A stretch of 15,092 nucleotides of DNA, from assembly GCA_020352575.1 (NCBI GenBank), contig CP070681.1, positions 1,662,298 through 1,677,389 of the forward strand. Reading direction: 5' to 3'. Below the pieces are notes generated by a model, which made no database searches, had not been told where the DNA came from, and saw only the letters and a program-made list of their open reading frames with translations. The translations under genes and the position numbers were made by a program. Of this stretch, positions 2,219-9,541 are shown piece by piece (positions within the stretch are counted from its first letter, which is position 1; every line of letters starts with the position of its first letter). This DNA is from Acidimicrobiia bacterium. Its GTDB lineage: Bacteria > Actinomycetota > Acidimicrobiia > Spongiisociales > JAENVV01.

Positions 2219-4183
2219 GTGCCGCTCGGATTCGCCGGGAAGATCCTCCACGTCGACCTCACCGCAGGGACGCTCACCGTCGAGGAGCCGTCCGACGACT
2301 TCTACCGCCTCTATGGCGGTGGCTCCGCCATGGGCCTCCACTACCTCCTGCACGGCACGCCCGCCGGCGCCGATCCACTGGGCCCCGAGAACACCCTTGC
2401 CTTCATGCTCGGCGGGATCACCGGGGCACCAATCTCCGGCCAGAGCAGGGCAACGGTCGTCGCCAAGTCTCCCCTCACCGGTGGCGTCGGTGACTCCCAG
2501 GCGGGCGGCTTCTGGCCGGCCGAACTCAAGTTCGCCGGGTTCGACGGCATCGTCGTGACCGGTCAGTCACCCACTCCGGTGTACCTGTGGATCAACAAGG
2601 GCGAGGCCGAGCTGCGGCCCGCCGACCACCTCTGGGGCAAGACGACCCGGGAAGTGGACAGGATCCTCAAGGACGAGCTCGAGGACCAGCGGATCGAGAT
2701 CGCCCAGGTCGGCCCGGCCGGCGAGAAGCTCGTGAAGTTCGCCGCCATCATGAACATGGCCAACCGGGCCCACGGCCGCACCGGCATGGGCGCCGTGATG
2801 GGTTCCAAGAAGCTCAAGGCGATCGTCGTCCGCGGTGGCAAGAAGCGGCTCGAGATGGCCGATCCGGGCCGCCTCCGCGACCTCATGCAGACGTCCCGCG
2901 TGAACACCATCGAGGACCGGTCGATGGCGAGCTTCGGGAAGCTGGGCACGATCGGCGTGGTGAACGCCCAGAACGCCGGCGGGGGGCTCCCCACACGCAA
3001 CTGGCAGAGCGGCTACTTCGGTGACGACGAGGCCGAGGCGATCTCCGGCGAGACGCTCTACGAGGAGTGGCTGCGGGGAGCCGACGAAGGCACGCAGTTC
3101 AAGACCGGCCGGGACACGTGCTACTCGTGCGCGGTGCGCTGCAAACGCGTCGTCGAGGCCGAGTGGCAGGAGAAGGCCCTCGAACCGGACGCAGGCGGTC
3201 CCGAGTACGAGACGGCCGCCACCTTCGGCTCCTACTGCGGGATCAGCGACATGGGGGCGATCGTCCACGCCAACCAGCTCTGCAACGACTTCGGTGTCGA
3301 CACCATCTCGGCGGGGGCAACGATGGCCTTCGCCATCGAGTGCTTCGAAGCGGGCCTCATCACCGAGGAGGACACCGGCGGCATCCGCCTCGCCTGGGGT
3401 GACGCCGAGACCATGACCGCCATGCTTGAGAAGACCCTCTCCAGTGAGGGGTTCGGGGCCGTCCTCGCCGAAGGGTCGGCCGGTGCCGCCGAACGCATCG
3501 GTGGGGGAGCGGAGGACTTCGCGATGGTGGCCCACCGCCAGGAACTCCCTGCCCACATGCCGCAGAAGAAGCCGTCGCTCGGCGTCGTGTACGCAGTGAA
3601 CCCGTTCGGCGCCGACCACCAATCGAGCGAACACGACGGTGCCTACAGCCCCCGCGCACTCGAAAAGATCCCGCACAAGAACGGCAAGCGCATGGCCGAT
3701 GTCGGCCTCACGACTCCCCAGTCCTCAGGGGCGCTCAACCGGGAGAAGGTCGAGTTCGCCCTCGTCAGCCAGTACGCCTACTCGGCGATGGACACCGTGA
3801 ACGTGTGCCAGTTCGTGTTCGGCCTGGCCTGGCAGCTCATGGGGATGGAGGAACTCGCCGAGATCCACACCTCGGTCACCGGGGACGACATGGGCGTCGA
3901 CGACCTCCTCACCCTCGGCGCCCGCCGGCTCAACCTGTTGCGGGCCTTCAACGCTCGCGAAGGGATCACCCGGGAGCAGGACACGCTCCCCAAGCGCCTC
4001 TTCGACGAGCCGCTCGAGGGTGGCCGCACCGACGGGGTCGTGTATGACCGGGACGCCTTCGAGATCGCCCTCGACACGTACTACGAGATGGCTGGGTGGG
4101 ACCCTGCCACCGGCAACCCAACCCGTGAGACCCTCGAGGGACTCGACCTCGGGTGGGTCGCCGACGAACTGCGGCTCGCCTGA
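2219..4183 (+). CDS. aor: Aldehyde:ferredoxin oxidoreductase (AOR family, tungsten/molybdenum-pterin enzyme)
   Basis: Oxidises aldehydes to carboxylic acids, or runs in reverse, at a W- or Mo-bis-pyranopterin centre and passes electrons through a 4Fe-4S cluster, normally to ferredoxin. It is 654 residues long, slightly above the usual 600-620. The N-terminal domain (about 1-210) has the GGGSAMGLHYL segment and ends in the cofactor-binding stretch NRAHGRTGMGAVMGSKKLKA. The cluster ligands are Cys301, Cys304 and Cys308 (C-x2-C-x3-C) plus Cys530. Glu331 in GGPEYET and His467 in FGADH are candidate equivalents of the acid/base residues of Pyrococcus furiosus AOR. The C-terminus carries the family's DTLPKRLFDEPL and YYEMAGWDPATGNPT blocks. 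No signal peptide is seen, so it is cytoplasmic. The next gene, a MoaD-MoeA fusion, starts 4 bases after the stop, tying the enzyme to cofactor assembly. Whether it binds W or Mo, and its substrate, cannot be read from sequence. Confidence 0.95.
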   Translation: MPLGFAGKILHVDLTAGTLTVEEPSDDFYRLYGGGSAMGLHYLLHGTPAGADPLGPENTLAFMLGGITGAPISGQSRATVVAKSPLTGGVGDSQAGGFWPAELKFAGFDGIVVTGQSPTPVYLWINKGEAELRPADHLWGKTTREVDRILKDELEDQRIEIAQVGPAGEKLVKFAAIMNMANRAHGRTGMGAVMGSKKLKAIVVRGGKKRLEMADPGRLRDLMQTSRVNTIEDRSMASFGKLGTIGVVNAQNAGGGLPTRNWQSGYFGDDEAEAISGETLYEEWLRGADEGTQFKTGRDTCYSCAVRCKRVVEAEWQEKALEPDAGGPEYETAATFGSYCGISDMGAIVHANQLCNDFGVDTISAGATMAFAIECFEAGLITEEDTGGIRLAWGDAETMTAMLEKTLSSEGFGAVLAEGSAGAAERIGGGAEDFAMVAHRQELPAHMPQKKPSLGVVYAVNPFGADHQSSEHDGAYSPRALEKIPHKNGKRMADVGLTTPQSSGALNREKVEFALVSQYAYSAMDTVNVCQFVFGLAWQLMGMEELAEIHTSVTGDDMGVDDLLTLGARRLNLLRAFNAREGITREQDTLPKRLFDEPLEGGRTDGVVYDRDAFEIALDTYYEMAGWDPATGNPTRETLEGLDLGWVADELRLA

Positions 4184-4187
4184 GGAC

Positions 4188-5687
4188 GTGCCCACCGTCC
4201 GACTCCCGTCGCTCCTCCGCCGTTTCGCCGACGGCGTCGCGGAGGTCGAGGTGGACGCGAGCACCCTCATGGGGGTGATCAACGCCCTCGTGGAGATGCA
4301 CCCAACCCTCGGCCCCCGCCTCCTCGACAGGCGCGGCCGGCTTGCGTCGCACGTCCTCGTCCTCCACCGAGGCGAACTCGTGAAGCCCGAGTACATCGAC
4401 GAGGCGGAGTTCGACCCATCAGAACGGGTAGACCTATTGCTGCCGATCTCCGGCGGCGCCCACGACGTGCGCATGAAGGGGTTCCGTGAACGCGCCTCGG
4501 TCGAGGCGGCGCTCGATGCAGCCCTCCACGGCGTGGTGCCCCTCGCCACCGAGGAGGTCCTGCCGGGACTGGCCGCAGGCAGGGTGCTCGCCGGGGCGGT
4601 CGTGAGCGACGTCGACATCCCCCCGTTCCGGAGGGCAGCCATGGACGGATACGCGGTCCGGGCCGAGGACACGTTCGGTGCCACGGCGTACGACCCCGTC
4701 GAGCTGGCCGTCGTCGGGTCGAGCATGCCCGGTGTGGGGCCAGATGGTCCCATGGGTCCGGGCGAGGCGCTCCGGATCATGACCGGGGCACCGGTCCCCA
4801 CCGAGGCAGATGCCGTCCTCCGAGCCGAGGACGCAACGCTCGTCGGAGACGTGGTCGAGGTACGGGCTGCGGTCGCCTCGGGGCGCCATGTGGGTCGCGT
4901 CGGAGAAGACGTCGACCGCGGCGACACGGTGCTCGAAGCCGGACGACGAGTGCGGGCCCAGGATGCGGCACTCCTCGCCTCGATCGGAGTCCCGGGTGTC
5001 GAGGTCCACCGTCGGCCACGAGTGCGGATCGTTGTCTCCGGTGACGAACTCCGGGCGCCCGGCGATCGGCCGGGTGGCTTCCAGATCGTCGACTCGAACT
5101 CTGTCATGCTCACCGCACTCGTCGCGCGCGACGGTGGCCTCGTCGAGGTCGTCCGGGTCCCCGACGACGAGGCCGCGATGCGCAACGCGCTCCGACCGGA
5201 GGGCGTGGACGTGGTCGTCACGTCGGGGGCAGCGTCCGTCGGCGCCGAGGACCGCGTCCCGCTCCTCGTGGACGAGCTCGGTGAGCTCGTGGTCCACGGG
5301 GTGGCGATGCGTCCGAGCTCACCCACCGGCGTCGGCCGCATCGACGGCGTGCCGGTCCTCATCCTGCCCGGCAACCCCGTGTCGTGCCTGGTGGCCTACG
5401 AGTTCTTCGCCGGTCCGGTGGTCCGTCGCCTCGGCGGCCGCTCGACCGACTGGCCGCATCGGTTCGTACACCTCCCGCTTGGTGAGCGCCTCGTGTCCCA
5501 GGTCGGCCGCGTCGACTACGCCAGGGTGCGCATCGACGATGGTCATGTCTTCCCGATCGCCGTGTCGGGTGCATCCCGGTTGTCTTCGCTCACCGAGGCG
5601 GACGGTTTCGTGATCGTGCCGAAGGCACTCGAAGGCTTCCCGGTCGGGGCGGAGGTCGAGGTCGGCTTGTTCGAGGGCAGCCAGTGA
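4188..5687 (+). CDS. MoaD-MoeA fusion: pterin sulfur-carrier domain joined to molybdopterin molybdotransferase
   Basis: A 499-residue two-domain protein of pterin cofactor assembly. Residues 1-90 resemble MoaD, the ubiquitin-fold sulfur carrier of MPT synthase: they start VPTVRLPSLLRRFADG and end LLLPISGG, with Gly89-Gly90 where free MoaD has its C-terminal Gly-Gly. From about residue 96 (MKGFRERASVEAAL) to the end is a full-length MoeA/gephyrin-E domain with RRAAMDGYAV (Asp153), PTEADAVL, SGDEL, IVDSNS, TSGAASVGAED and LPGNPVS. The motif usually read as KPGKP is RPSSP here (375-379), losing both lysines. The GTG start is 4 bases after the AOR1 stop and has only a cramped GAGGA before it, so translation is probably coupled. 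An internal start (GTG 4467 or ATG 4473) could also yield MoeA alone, but no ribosome-binding site precedes either. The last bases overlap the next start (GTGA). Confidence 0.9.
   Translation: MPTVRLPSLLRRFADGVAEVEVDASTLMGVINALVEMHPTLGPRLLDRRGRLASHVLVLHRGELVKPEYIDEAEFDPSERVDLLLPISGGAHDVRMKGFRERASVEAALDAALHGVVPLATEEVLPGLAAGRVLAGAVVSDVDIPPFRRAAMDGYAVRAEDTFGATAYDPVELAVVGSSMPGVGPDGPMGPGEALRIMTGAPVPTEADAVLRAEDATLVGDVVEVRAAVASGRHVGRVGEDVDRGDTVLEAGRRVRAQDAALLASIGVPGVEVHRRPRVRIVVSGDELRAPGDRPGGFQIVDSNSVMLTALVARDGGLVEVVRVPDDEAAMRNALRPEGVDVVVTSGAASVGAEDRVPLLVDELGELVVHGVAMRPSSPTGVGRIDGVPVLILPGNPVSCLVAYEFFAGPVVRRLGGRSTDWPHRFVHLPLGERLVSQVGRVDYARVRIDDGHVFPIAVSGASRLSSLTEADGFVIVPKALEGFPVGAEVEVGLFEGSQ
5673..5677 (+). 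promoter_or_regulatory. Weak ribosome-binding site for the second MoeA gene
   Basis: GAGGG is 6 bases before GTG 5684 and inside the 3' end of the MoaD-MoeA gene. With the GTGA start/stop overlap it supports translational coupling and the GTG start. Confidence 0.45.
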
Positions 5688-7612
5688 GGCAGGAGCAGTT
5701 CCTCGATGTCATCGACGAGGAGGTCGCCCGGGCCCGATGGGACGCCGCCACGGAGGGGATCACGACGGGAGTCGAACGCGTGCCGCTGGCCGAGGCGCTG
5801 GGCAGGGTGGTTGCCGAGGAGGTGCGGGCCCGCGTCGACGTCCCCGGCTTCGATCGCTCCAACATGGACGGCTTCGCGGTCCGTGCCCAGGACACCTTCG
5901 GTGCCGAGGAGGCAGAGCCGGTGCGGCTCCGGGTGGCCGACATCCACCTCGAGGCCGGGAAATCGCCGCCCGCCGATCTGGAGGTGGATCCGGGCATCGC
6001 GGTCAGGATTGCCACGGGAGGGGTGATACCTCGCGGAGCGGATGCGGTGGTCATGGTCGAGGACACACAGCCCGATGGCGACGGCGTGCTCGTCGGCCGA
6101 GCCGTGGCGCCGGGTGGGAACGTTTCGTTCGCCGGGTCGGACATCGGGAGGGGAGAGGTGATCGCGCGCCCCGGCCGGGAGGTCTGGGCGAGGGAGACCG
6201 GCGTGCTTGCGTCGGTCGGCTGCGCCGACGTGACGGTCGTCCGACGGCCGAGGGTGCTCGTCGTGTCAACCGGGGACGAGATCGTTGCGCCCGGGGGAGA
6301 AGTCGGCGTTGGTGATGTGTACGACTCCAACCAACGGATCCTGCTCGACACCCTTGCGGAACTCGGAGCCGAACCCGTCGCGGGGGGGATCATCCCCGAC
6401 GACGAGGAACGCCTCCGTGCCGCGATCGCCGGAGCCGTCGCCGATGGGGCGATCGACCTCGTCTTGTTGAGCGGTGGGACCTCCAAGGGTGACGGCGACC
6501 TCAACGCCCGGCTCGTCCATGAGTTGGCAGCGGACCTACCGGGTCCCGGAGTGGTCGCCCACGGAGTCGCCCTCAAGCCCGGCAAGCCGCTCCTGTTGTC
6601 GGTCCTCGACGCAACCCCTGTCGTGGTCCTCCCCGGGTTCCCCACGTCGGCCATCTTCACGTTCCACGAGTTCGTCGCCCCGCTCGTCCGGCGACTCGGC
6701 GGGCGGGACCCCGCAGCAGCGGCGATCGTGGAGGCGCGCCTCCCCCTGCGGGTCGACGGTGCGCCCGGTCGAACGACGTATGCCCTCGTCGACCTGGTCC
6801 ATGCCGCCGACGGGATCGCCGCCTACCCGCTTGGCGCCGGGTCCGGCTCCGTGACGGCGTTCGCCCGGGCCGACGGGTTCATCCGGATCCCCTCCGATGT
6901 GGAGTACGTCGAGGAGGGAGAGATGGTCCGCGTGCGGCTCATCGATCCGTCGATCCGCCCCGCTGACCTCGTCGTCATCGGGAGCCATTGCGTGGGCCTC
7001 GACCACCTCCTCGGGCGGCTCGCCTCGGAGGGATTCCGGGTGAAGATGATCCCGGTCGGTTCCCGTGCGGGTCTCGCCGCACTCCGACGGGGGGAGGGGG
7101 ATGTGGCCGGCACCCACCTCCTGGACCCGGCCACGGGCACCTACAACAGGCCGTTCCTCCCCGCCGGGACGACGCTGGTCCCCGGCTACCGGCGTCGGCA
7201 GGGGATTGCGTCGGAGCCCGGCACGCTCGACCTCGACGGGATCGCCGACGCCGAACTGGGTGCCGTGCTCGGTTCCGGGTCCCTACGGATGGTGAATCGG
7301 AACCCGGGAGCGGGGACGCGGGTCCTCATCGACGGGCTCCTCGGGGGTGCCCGTCCGCCCGGCTACCTCCACCAGGCTCGCACCCACCACGGCGTGGCCG
7401 CTGCGGTCGCCCAGGGTCGGGCCGATTGGGGTGTCACCATCGAGACGGTCGCACGCGAAGCCGGGCTCGCATTCCGGTTCGTCGCCGACGAGCACTTCGA
7501 CCTCGCCGTTCGCACCGATCGCATGGCGCTTCCGGCCGTTGCGCGGCTCTTGGAGCTGGTCGGCGACGAGGGCGTGCGCGCCGAACTCGACGCGATGGGG
7601 TTCCCCGAGTAG
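5684..7612 (+). CDS. moeA: Molybdopterin molybdotransferase (MoeA) with C-terminal periplasmic-binding-protein-like domain
   Basis: MoeA inserts molybdate, or probably tungstate in AOR systems, into adenylated molybdopterin. This 642-residue protein has a complete MoeA part (about 1-415) with SNMDGFAV (Asp62), PRGADAVVMVED, STGDEI, VYDSNQ, SGGTSKGDGD from Ser263, an intact KPGKP at 298-302, and LPGFPTS. A second domain (about 425-640) follows, resembling the PBP-like, LysR-substrate/molybdate-binding-like domain known as a fusion partner of MoeA. Its marks are DLVVIGSHCVGLDHLL, GDVAGTHLLDP, NRNPGAGTRVLID and GRADWGVTIE. No signal peptide is present, so the binding domain is cytoplasmic and may sense or deliver oxyanion or cofactor, though its ligand is unproven. 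It is clearly not a recent duplicate of the upstream MoeA, since its motifs differ throughout. It is the last gene of the cluster, and the convergent AOR2 gene ends 15 bases further on. Confidence 0.93.
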   Translation: MRQEQFLDVIDEEVARARWDAATEGITTGVERVPLAEALGRVVAEEVRARVDVPGFDRSNMDGFAVRAQDTFGAEEAEPVRLRVADIHLEAGKSPPADLEVDPGIAVRIATGGVIPRGADAVVMVEDTQPDGDGVLVGRAVAPGGNVSFAGSDIGRGEVIARPGREVWARETGVLASVGCADVTVVRRPRVLVVSTGDEIVAPGGEVGVGDVYDSNQRILLDTLAELGAEPVAGGIIPDDEERLRAAIAGAVADGAIDLVLLSGGTSKGDGDLNARLVHELAADLPGPGVVAHGVALKPGKPLLLSVLDATPVVVLPGFPTSAIFTFHEFVAPLVRRLGGRDPAAAAIVEARLPLRVDGAPGRTTYALVDLVHAADGIAAYPLGAGSGSVTAFARADGFIRIPSDVEYVEEGEMVRVRLIDPSIRPADLVVIGSHCVGLDHLLGRLASEGFRVKMIPVGSRAGLAALRRGEGDVAGTHLLDPATGTYNRPFLPAGTTLVPGYRRRQGIASEPGTLDLDGIADAELGAVLGSGSLRMVNRNPGAGTRVLIDGLLGGARPPGYLHQARTHHGVAAAVAQGRADWGVTIETVAREAGLAFRFVADEHFDLAVRTDRMALPAVARLLELVGDEGVRAELDAMGFPE

Positions 7613-7627
7613 GGCCGGGCCGGACGT

Positions 7628-9445
7628 CTACAGGTAGCCCAGCTCGCGGGCGCGACCGTCCAGTTCCTCCAGGATCCGCCCCTGCATCTCGGCGAAGAAC
7701 TCGGGGGTGTTGAAGTACTCGAGTTCGGAGCTCTCAATGGGCTCGTGGGCTTCGGCGGGGAGCACATAGTCGGTCTCGTCGAACCCCGTCTTGCGCTCCA
7801 CGGCGTAGCCCCGGATGAAGGTGCGGTGCGTGGTGTCGAGGAGGGCCTGCTCGTCGATGTCGAGGTTTGCGGCGATCTGGAGCGCCTCAGCGTGCATCGC
7901 CGGCGTCGCCATCGAGAACTTGCAGAGACCGTCGATGTCGGAGCGGATGTAGTCCCAGCCGCGGTTCGTCACCGCATCGACCCAGTAGTCCACGCTCGTC
8001 TCACCCTCGGCGATCATGAGCAGGAAGGTCCGCATGCTCATGTGGCCGCCGGCGAGCGCCCACGGGAACCCCGGGTTGGAGTGCGGCACGTACGCCGGGT
8101 ACTCGACACCCTTGCTCTGCATCGCGAACTCGGGCGCGCCGAGCTCCTCGGCCATACGGAGGGTGCCCTGCCCGACGAAGGGCAGCTTGCCCGTGCCGAT
8201 CGCCTCCACCGCCGCGAGTGCGGCTGCTGCATCGCCGTAGGAGAGGCCGTCGGCAACCGGATTGCCGGGGTTGCGGCGGTTCCACTCCATGGCGTAGGCG
8301 AGGCTCACGCCGAGGGAGATCGAGTCCATGCACAGCTCATCGCACAGGGCGATGAGGTCCATCGCCGCTTCCTTGTCGAAGATGCCGAGCCCGACCGAGA
8401 GCAACGCGAGCGGCTCGTAGTCGAACTTGGCGCGGAAGCGGCCCTCCCCATCGTCGTCGTAGATGTTCTTGTGACACTTGATGCCGCACAGGTAGCACGA
8501 CTCCGAACGGACCTCGTACCCGCCGGCTTCCTCGAACGGGTCCCGGCGGAGCGCCACGTGTCGGTCGTCGCCGGTGGGCCGGAAGTTGAACTCGGGGATG
8601 ATGCCGTGCTCGCCCTGGGTGACCATCTGTCGCCACGTCCCGATCTCCCGGTAGATGCGCGAGCCCTCGCCGAGGTTGATCTCCTTGTTGAGGTCACGGA
8701 GGCCGCGTTGGCGCCCCGGGTCGTCCCCGTCGGCGATGATCGCCATGAGGTTCTTCGAGCCCATCACACCGCCGTAGCCACCCCGGCCGGCGTACCTGGC
8801 CTTCGAGTCGCCGGACTTCAACTGGTTGTCCGTGGAGAGCGCGATCGCCGCATACCGGACGTCGCCGCCCTGCTCACCCGCAGGGCCGATCACCGCGAAG
8901 TGGGCCTCGGGGTAGCGGCCGTGGAGGTGCTGGATCCGATCGTTGGAGTGGCGCCCGACGAGGTCGGAGGCGTCGATGAACTCGAAGTTCGCCGGGCCTT
9001 CCGGCCCGTTGGGATCCTCGCTCATGGTGAGGACGACGGCGACAGGCGTCTCCGAACGACCGGTGAAGATCACGTCGTCGATGCCGAGGCCCCGCAGCTT
9101 CGTGCCGAAGTGCCCACTGCCGGCGCTCCACATGAGGCCCGGGGTGCCGTTCCTGGCCCGCTTCAGAGGCGACCAGCCGTGGAAGTAGGTCCGCAGACCG
9201 GTCATGACCCGGGTGCCGGACAGCAGTCCGAGGTTCATCATGAGCGGGGCCTCGGGGGAGTACGGGTCGACCGGCTCCTGCCCGTCGAACCACTTCGTGG
9301 CGCGGGCGATGCCGCCGAGTGTGTCTTCGAGGTCGGTGCAGGCGATCGACTCGAACCGGACGTCCTTCGTGGTGAGGTCCACGTGGTACCGGTGCACCGT
9401 GAACTCGGTGAGGGGCTTCAGGTCCTGCAACTCGGCGGTCGTCAC
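7628..9445 (-). CDS. Second, divergent aldehyde:ferredoxin oxidoreductase family protein
   Basis: A 605-residue AOR-family protein on the minus strand. The 4Fe-4S ligands are complete: Cys317, Cys320 and Cys324 (CYLCGIKC) plus Cys508 (GLCKFS). The cofactor-binding stretch reads GRGGYGGVMGSKNLMA, FDYEPLALLS matches the region of the catalytic Glu, and GGHMS that of the catalytic His. It differs strongly from AOR1 at both ends: the N-terminus is longer and altered (HRYHVDLTTKDVRFESIA), and the C-terminus lacks the AOR1-type YYEMAGWD block, ending instead in NTPEFFAEMQGRILEEL. It is therefore a different subfamily, with unknown substrate, and a true aldehyde oxidoreductase activity is inference. 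The GTG start at 9445 was chosen for its ribosome-binding site 6 bases upstream. The frame stays open to an ATG at 9535, but those 30 residues look unlike the family. It is probably a client of the adjacent MoeA proteins. Confidence 0.9.
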   Translation of the reverse strand: MTTAELQDLKPLTEFTVHRYHVDLTTKDVRFESIACTDLEDTLGGIARATKWFDGQEPVDPYSPEAPLMMNLGLLSGTRVMTGLRTYFHGWSPLKRARNGTPGLMWSAGSGHFGTKLRGLGIDDVIFTGRSETPVAVVLTMSEDPNGPEGPANFEFIDASDLVGRHSNDRIQHLHGRYPEAHFAVIGPAGEQGGDVRYAAIALSTDNQLKSGDSKARYAGRGGYGGVMGSKNLMAIIADGDDPGRQRGLRDLNKEINLGEGSRIYREIGTWRQMVTQGEHGIIPEFNFRPTGDDRHVALRRDPFEEAGGYEVRSESCYLCGIKCHKNIYDDDGEGRFRAKFDYEPLALLSVGLGIFDKEAAMDLIALCDELCMDSISLGVSLAYAMEWNRRNPGNPVADGLSYGDAAAALAAVEAIGTGKLPFVGQGTLRMAEELGAPEFAMQSKGVEYPAYVPHSNPGFPWALAGGHMSMRTFLLMIAEGETSVDYWVDAVTNRGWDYIRSDIDGLCKFSMATPAMHAEALQIAANLDIDEQALLDTTHRTFIRGYAVERKTGFDETDYVLPAEAHEPIESSELEYFNTPEFFAEMQGRILEELDGRARELGYL

Positions 9446-9451
9446 CGTGGT

Positions 9452-9460
9452 CTCCTCCTC
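9452..9460 (-). promoter_or_regulatory. Strong ribosome-binding site fixing the AOR2 start
   Basis: On the minus strand GAGGAGGAG lies 6 bases before GTG 9445. It favours this start over the in-frame ATG at 9535. Confidence 0.75.
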
Positions 9461-9491
9461 GCGGGGCATCCCGCTGGATCGCGTTTGGGGA

Positions 9492-9497
9492 ACGATA
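9492..9497 (-). promoter_or_regulatory. Candidate -10 element for AOR2
   Basis: TATCGT on the minus strand fits TANNNT. Transcription would start near 9485, giving a leader of about 40 bases that includes the ribosome-binding site. The same hexamer appears before the GntR gene. The site lies in the divergent AOR2/M20 gap (9446-9541), which also holds the 10-base palindrome GGGGGCCCCC at 9504-9513. No clear -35 is seen. Confidence 0.3.
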
Positions 9498-9541
9498 GAA
9501 GACGGGGGCCCCCACGGCGCTCGTCCTGCCAACATGTGGCC

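Follow-up and report, generated by a model that had tools for sequence, protein, structure and literature searches.

The closest described systems are fused proteins in which a sulfur carrier is released by cutting. MoaX, which a preliminary description of the DNA analyzed here had put forward as a precedent for cleavage, is indeed reported to be cut between Gly82 and Ser83, and the cut is required, the protease being left unidentified in that paper (PMC4326299). HvJAMM1 cuts a SAMP1-MoaE fusion in vivo, and no cut was seen when the di-glycine was missing (PMC4443979), while DRJAMM cuts MoaD-MoaE (PMC8832034); in work cited in the latter paper, the di-glycine was not required for HvJAMM1 to cut linear fusions. 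With regard to gene order, Iyer et al. (2006) reported moaD strictly adjacent to aldehyde ferredoxin oxidoreductase (AOR) genes and, in a few cases, beside moeA; they also proposed that JAB proteins might release carriers from fusions, and, in the part of the paper available, describe JAB genes as absent from the Mo/W-cofactor pathways (PMC1779556). A survey of archaeal fusions names MoaD-MoaE and MoaD-MoeB, and MoaD-MoeA is not named in its accessible part (PMC11237513). No description of a MoaD-MoeA fusion was found in the literature searched, to which most subscription papers and preprints did not belong. The suggestion that this arrangement is not a described system therefore holds for the fusion within that literature, but AOR-linked moaD, moaD beside moeA and the idea of a JAB cut were already present in the accessible part of Iyer et al. 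(PMC1779556).

The window, meaning the whole stretch of DNA that was analyzed, comprises 15,092 nucleotides from an Acidimicrobiia bacterium. Positions 4188-5687 of its forward strand form a single stop-free frame, from GTG to TGA, that encodes a 499-residue protein composed of a MoaD-like β-grasp domain (residues 1-90, ending in Gly89-Gly90) followed by a complete MoeA. The TGA of an AOR gene lies 4 nt ahead of the fusion's GTG, with nothing in between in the window, and the GTG of a second MoeA gene, encoding a MoeA with a PBP-like domain (MoeA-PBP), overlaps the fusion's TGA by 4 nt. Because of this short gap and this overlap, the genes for AOR, carrier-MoeA and MoeA-PBP look like one operon. 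The features are as follows:

2219..4183, + strand: AOR (aldehyde ferredoxin oxidoreductase, tungsten-enzyme family), with AFOR_N and AFOR_C
4188..4457, + strand: MoaD-like (SAMP1/CysO-type) beta-grasp sulfur-carrier domain, residues 1-90 (NF041918, profile, AF2, Foldseek)
4452..4457, + strand: codons of Gly89-Gly90, the internal di-glycine (alignment)
4458..4472, + strand: junction AHDVR, residues 91-95 (sequence comparison; model pLDDT <50 at 87-100)
4473..5684, + strand: MoeA (molybdopterin metallotransferase) domains I-IV, residues 96-499 (PF03453, PF00994, PF03454); stop codon at 5685-5687
5310..5324, + strand: RPSSP (residues 375-379), where E. coli MoeA has the oxyanion-pocket motif KPGKP (alignment)
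5684..7612, + strand: second MoeA with a PBP-like domain (MoeA-PBP), which has KPGKP (NF011068, 694 bits, above cut-off; PF12727)
7628..9535, - strand: a further AOR-family protein, divergent in sequence and encoded convergently to the operon (AFOR_N and AFOR_C)

The product of 7628-9535 (-) matches PRK09849 at E 1e-12, as compared to 5e-67 for the first AOR, and several related loci also have a similar protein encoded opposite the operon.

The fusion is real. A sequencing error or missed stop at the junction, which would have undone the original observation, was rejected: the frame is open, and proteins of 499-500 residues with the same open fusion come from other assemblies (P0002, P0003 and P0004, with 96%, 84% and 76% identity over residues 1-92, respectively). 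Error is made unlikely by this recurrence in other assemblies and by the 13 genomes, among 138 of the window's order, that carry the fusion. In that order, the window's own genome included, this MoeA subfamily was found in 25 genomes (E <= 1e-60), being fused in 13, unfused in 11 and present in one as a fragment that is not classifiable. The GTDB species set was also scanned with the peptide pattern [EDH]DVRM[RK]GF, which misses fusions with another junction, and returned 17 loci, 11 fused and six unfused; among the fused ones, L078 and L080 belong to Planctomycetota and L070 is an Acidimicrobiia locus that differs in sequence from the 13, the others repeating genomes among those 13. Thus, the genome survey that had been proposed yielded a total of 19 fusions, namely those of 13 order genomes, one further Acidimicrobiia (L070), two Planctomycetota and three metagenome proteins, placing the fusion in two phyla. 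A spread through the whole phylum was rejected: in a search of 396 phylum genomes with the fusion profile (E <= 1e-80, at most the best three candidates per genome scored), no fusion beyond the window's genome was among the matches listed, the only match covering the carrier start being in that genome and the other matches listed beginning at model position 86 or later.

In a tree of 33 MoeA domains of the subfamily and six outgroup rows, which has several weak branches and one very long outgroup row, the fused and unfused states require five changes, three of them forced by well-supported branches; a history of one gain and four losses would fit this tree. The unfused relatives, with about four losses on the best tree, could be taken to mean that the fusion is a decaying accident with a non-functional carrier half, and so could the fact that, in the 12 other fused genomes of the order, the MoaD domain is only 34-41% identical to that of the window, as compared to 62-69% for MoeA. 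Nevertheless, all fusions seen, from two phyla, have an open frame, and the Gly-Gly is invariant, which makes an accident scarcely credible. The fusion is old and conserved.

Residues 1-90 are a carrier of the MoaD/ThiS superfamily, of the SAMP1/CysO branch and not a classical E. coli-type MoaD. The preliminary description had read the protein as a complete MoaD followed by a complete MoeA; the fusion, the carrier fold and the MoeA part (MoeA_N, MoCF_biosynth and MoeA_C covering residues 104-494) are upheld, but the assignment to classical MoaD gives way to the SAMP1/CysO type. Separate family searches of the two halves were similarly divided, the MoeA models covering their part and SAMP1 (NF041918) matching residues 1-90 at E 1e-8 (35.6 bits, cut-off 60), but Pfam ThiS being only marginal on residues 1-90 alone (E 0.0063, 17.5 bits, cut-off 22.5); the window's carrier domain by itself falls below the curated cut-offs of the carrier models. 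Across the family, Pfam ThiS matched 10 of 11 scanned members at E <= 0.1 (best 1.6e-8). Moreover, residues 1-90 match SAMP1 of the PDB at E 7e-4. A profile was built from 15 of the 19 fusions (alignment A3), without G029, which is near G009, and without the window's relatives P0002-P0004; it reaches E values of about 1e-15 for CysO-type chains, 2e-11 for SAMP1 and 2e-9 for 2m19, a chain named molybdopterin converting factor subunit 1. Modelled with AF2, the domain has a mean pLDDT of 89.7, and its nearest folds in Foldseek are SAMP1 (3po0, TM 0.85) and CysO. Residues 1-90 thus show the beta-grasp fold and the family sequence profile of a sulfur carrier, and the di-glycine that closes such a domain (Gly89-Gly90), but not at a free C-terminus, as 409 residues follow in the encoded chain.

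The Gly-Gly is present in 19 of the 19 fusions seen. Across the 90 columns of the carrier alignment (15 rows), invariance is confined to P7, T26, G89 and G90, the rough chance of two named columns being among four invariant ones being 0.0015, and in a 16-row full-length alignment (the order's fusions and the metagenome proteins) seven of the first 90 positions are invariant, both glycines among them. The residue that follows is A, S, V or G in all cases, and the Gly-Gly sits at the junction, as in carrier fusions of the MoaX and D. radiodurans MoaD-MoaE type. In the structure prediction that had been proposed for the surroundings of Gly90, residues 87-100 of the full-length model are disordered (pLDDT <50). 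Judged by its conservation, the internal Gly-Gly has been treated by evolution as functional, and a buried Gly-Gly left unchanged over such a long evolution suggests that the protein is cut in two after synthesis. However, strict Gly-Gly retention need not mean recognition by a JAMM protease, given the HvJAMM1 cuts cited in PMC8832034.

The junction is also the place at which a second product could arise by internal re-initiation of translation, at Met96 or at a GTG for Val94, leaving the fused form as a by-product; this was one of three options initially considered. The ATG at residue 96 is conserved, and the duplex energy ahead of it reaches -5 kcal/mol or below in six of 15 sequences, the window's own first start having -1.7. 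Yet this MoeA subfamily has DVRM+GF as its conserved start, and all 11 unfused MoeAs of the order retain DVR or DIR ahead of the Met, while codon 94 is GTG in only seven of 13 and a Shine-Dalgarno-like word at -18 to -4 is found in two of 15, with none in the window (energy -2.5). Re-initiation would, in addition, leave no free Gly-Gly carrier. An internal MoeA start is thus not well conserved, though six of 15 look passable by duplex energy, and the option, weakened by these counts, appears very improbable to us. The Gly-Gly codons were also considered as a Shine-Dalgarno site and rejected, GGAGGT occurring in only two of 13 sequences, 15 nt from the ATG.

Two relatives, G101 and G102, have this same MoeA directly following an AOR gene but lacking the carrier, and their MoeA frame retains a vestigial IGGA ahead of DVRM. 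Both have a free carrier of the same type beside a second AOR, ending GG-APT* and GG-AA*. The MoeA of G101 and G102 nests among the fused forms (95/93), and their free MoaD domain groups with a fused one, with a support of 83/84 that is not strong. The simplest reading, as far as these sequences go, is that a fused ancestor was split at the junction. The carrier's Gly-Gly was kept, still not terminal, and would become C-terminal only if trimmed. QbsE/QbsD is a precedent for tail trimming. The free carrier that neighbours the second AOR in G040 and G071 has GG as its last two residues.

As to a protease, both Planctomycetota loci (L078 and L080) have, in this order, a JAMM gene on the opposite strand, TupA-TupB-TupC-like genes, the fusion and MoeA-PBP. 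The JAMM gene is of the Prok-JAB type, with an H-S-H-x7-S-x2-D core (assigned by eye), and is divergent to the Tup-like genes. TupA and TupB of L078 match NCBI tungstate models below their cut-offs, and TupA of L080 was assigned by reading its ORF. In Acidimicrobiia, the JAMM protein of G029 matches the desampylase model NF041370 (E 1.5e-20, 73 bits, cut-off 130), its gene having genes assigned by eye as MBL-fold, RNase PH and RdgB-like for neighbours, while no carrier match adjoins it. JAMM genes were found in nine of 13 fused and 10 of 11 unfused Acidimicrobiia genomes; JAMM presence was therefore rejected as a marker of the fusion and, being no commoner with it than without it, says little by itself. 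In the window's genome (G000; one contig, 69% complete) neither JAMM nor E1 was found, and MoaE gave a partial match only (model positions 87-114 of 114). A search of the window's genome for RNase PH, whose gene is close to that of JAMM in G029, was likewise negative, so that, at 69% completeness, the absence of JAMM and E1 proves little. E1-like genes are present in nine of the 13 fused genomes, E1 not being found in G000, G023 (92% complete), G036 and G066, and MoaE was not found in the fused genomes G036, G071 (96% complete), G122 and G123. In G009 (97% complete), E1, MoaE and JAMM are all present, with no carrier found beside the JAMM gene.

Cutting after Gly90 is the best supported of the three options initially considered, given the invariant Gly-Gly, the disordered junction, the JAMM genes beside both Planctomycetota loci, and the seemingly split relatives, in which GG is followed by two to three residues. 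A reversible switch would use the same protease, the uncut fusion being an inactive store from which a regulated JAMM cut would start sulfur supply and metal insertion together. The JAMM gene divergent beside the tup-fusion operons in both Planctomycetota loci agrees with such a switch, as does the inactivity of SAMP1-linked MoaE until it is cut by HvJAMM1 (PMC4443979); still, nothing shows regulation, and the G029 JAMM gene, from Acidimicrobiia, lies among unrelated genes, for which reason we regard a switch as quite improbable. More broadly, the fusion in Acidimicrobiia and Planctomycetota might be a zymogen of tungsten-cofactor assembly, that is, a 1:1 inactive ubiquitin-like precursor of which a single JAMM cut would activate both parts, a proposal that we consider rather doubtful. 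If true, control of the deubiquitinase type would operate within the Mo/W cofactor pathway, which was said to be without JAB genes, and in Planctomycetota this JAMM would be encoded beside a tungstate-type importer.

The remaining option, also among those first considered, is a docking or regulatory domain: the carrier would stay attached and bring MPT synthase or other tungsten-cofactor enzymes to MoeA, while a free carrier donates sulfur. Protein fusions often mark channelling. Other carriers are present in many of the genomes, and the unfused relatives show a MoeA without need of a covalent carrier, all of which would suit docking. On the other hand, a docking surface should be kept, yet invariance in the 15 sequences is limited to P7, T26 and the Gly-Gly, and strict Gly-Gly retention is left unexplained. 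Furthermore, no unfused carrier was found in G009, where two search models returned two carriers only, both with an internal GG; as a search with A3 returned a third carrier in its congener G029, this two-carrier finding applies to G009 alone. Altogether, we consider docking unlikely, and cleavage after Gly90 is the reading retained below.

Several other carriers were observed along the way. The window's genome encodes a second carrier fusion (L001:712-1815, -), in which a MoaD domain ending in IPPVSGG runs in frame into about 250 residues that have, by eye, the look of a multi-pass membrane protein; Pfam detects ThiS alone in L001. Fusions of this type also occur in L022-L027, L111, L112, L114-L124 and L127 (IPPVAGG in L027), the motif type being seen in 21 of 22 loci examined, and they are the sole carrier found by PF02597 in several genomes. 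Near JAMM genes, CysO-like carriers of L173 (G068) and L175 (G123) end GGAR* and GGR*, with a short tail after the Gly-Gly, and L174:3093-3359 (-) (G071:C166) is a CysO-like carrier ending AAAGG inside a 620-residue frame with an E1-like match, a possible carrier fusion with internal Gly-Gly that adjoins a JAMM gene. Free MoaD-like carriers of yet another type, ending QAVSGG (L221:2152-2409, L222:2040-2306 and L223:1500-1757), form their own branch (97/94) of the carrier tree.

The C-terminal part has the domains I-IV of a metal insertase (MoeA/Cnx1E/gephyrin-E) in order, and Foldseek returns MoeA 1uz5 at E 1e-38; the fused MoeA is below the cut-off of each MoeA model listed. The KPGKP oxyanion-pocket motif of E. 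coli MoeA is replaced by RPSSP, while the equivalent of the E. coli pocket residue Ser303 is kept as S399. Of the 33 rows of the subfamily, 23 share RPSSP; both Planctomycetota fusions have RPAAP, seven unfused genomes that belong to a single genus have RPSAP, and one row was not matched. MoeA-PBP of the same operon has KPGKP; KPGKP is not universal, however, as the MoeA chains of Pyrococcus vary at the motif (QPGKP, RPGRP, KPGRP). In Methylorubrum MoeA1, a tungsten preference has been tied to Arg291, at the position of the second Lys, together with Ala312, at the position of Ser303 (PMC13197769, as given in the accessible text); the window's MoeA has Ser378 at the position of Arg291, Arg375 at that of the Lys before it, and Ser399 kept.

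An AOR gene lies directly ahead of the fusion in the window, G009, G029 and G068, and, within the stretches of DNA covered, the link to AOR genes extends to 11 of 16 fused loci with an AOR-family gene nearby (window, G009, G016, G023, G029, G036, G068, G080, G084, G122 and L078), no such gene being seen near the fusion in the DNA covered for G071 and L080 (16 kb each) or for L070, G066 and G123 (8 kb or less). G071 has an AOR-family gene and a free carrier on another contig. As a separate observation, three similar small ORFs lie directly 5' of the fusion in L044:8563-10259 and L071:6284-8001 (by eye, lipoprotein-like, a 243-residue protein and a membrane protein); the L044 set is located between AOR and the fusion, and has no Pfam match. 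The AOR and Tup context and the remodelled pocket suggest a tungsten role for the fused MoeA. With its changed oxyanion pocket and its own carrier, beside a second MoeA with the E. coli-type motif, it makes testable the question of how AOR-containing bacteria separate tungsten- from molybdenum-cofactor assembly.

Overall, we infer, in part from precedent, a cut, a protease, a sulfur role and tungsten as the metal, and the most likely mechanism, which we hold to be reasonably probable, is that a JAMM-type protease cuts the protein, a precursor in tungsten-cofactor assembly, after Gly90. Translation would yield a single precursor chain joining the SAMP1/CysO-type carrier to MoeA, from which a JAMM/MPN+ protease of the desampylase/Mec type would, by cutting after Gly90, release the carrier with Gly-Gly at its C-terminus and a MoeA whose chain begins A-x-DVRM. 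The freed carrier would be adenylated and thiocarboxylated by an E1 (MoeB/MoeZ) and feed sulfur into the metal-binding pterin. Metal insertion for the AORs of the locus, with tungsten as the probable metal, would be the task of the released MoeA together with MoeA-PBP. If the cut is confirmed, a metal insertase would be a new partner among the few ubiquitin-like carriers released from a larger chain, and a deubiquitinase-type enzyme would be tied to tungsten-cofactor assembly by gene neighbourhood.

In comparison with known systems, the four MoeA domains are those of canonical MoeA and of PRK14498-type MoeA-PBP (NF011068), from which the fused MoeA differs in having RPSSP for KPGKP. The MoaD-related protein 1v8c of Thermus (160-168 residues) also combines a MoaD fold with an extra chain behind the carrier part, but that chain is short and is not MoeA. 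CysO/Mec and SAMP1/HvJAMM1 offer the closest carrier sequence and fold, and a relative's JAMM protein matches the desampylase model below cut-off; CysO and SAMP1 are free proteins, whereas the carrier here is fused. AOR-linked moaD (PMC1779556; aorD/aorE of Aromatoleum, PMC6365974) shares a carrier beside AOR, sometimes with moeA nearby; in what these papers make accessible, the carrier occurs as a free protein or, in Azoarcus, follows AOR in a fusion, while here it is fused ahead of MoeA. MoaX and MoaD-MoaE of M. tuberculosis and D. radiodurans share the N-terminal carrier, the internal Gly-Gly and a Moco-pathway enzyme behind it, and MoaX also has a small residue following the two glycines, Ser where the fusion has Ala. 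MoaX proper, a fused MPT synthase, ends in MoaE, whereas the partner here is MoeA, acting in metal insertion; the carrier is SAMP1/CysO-like, the locus is that of an AOR, and the cut, reported for those fusions, is one that we infer for this one.
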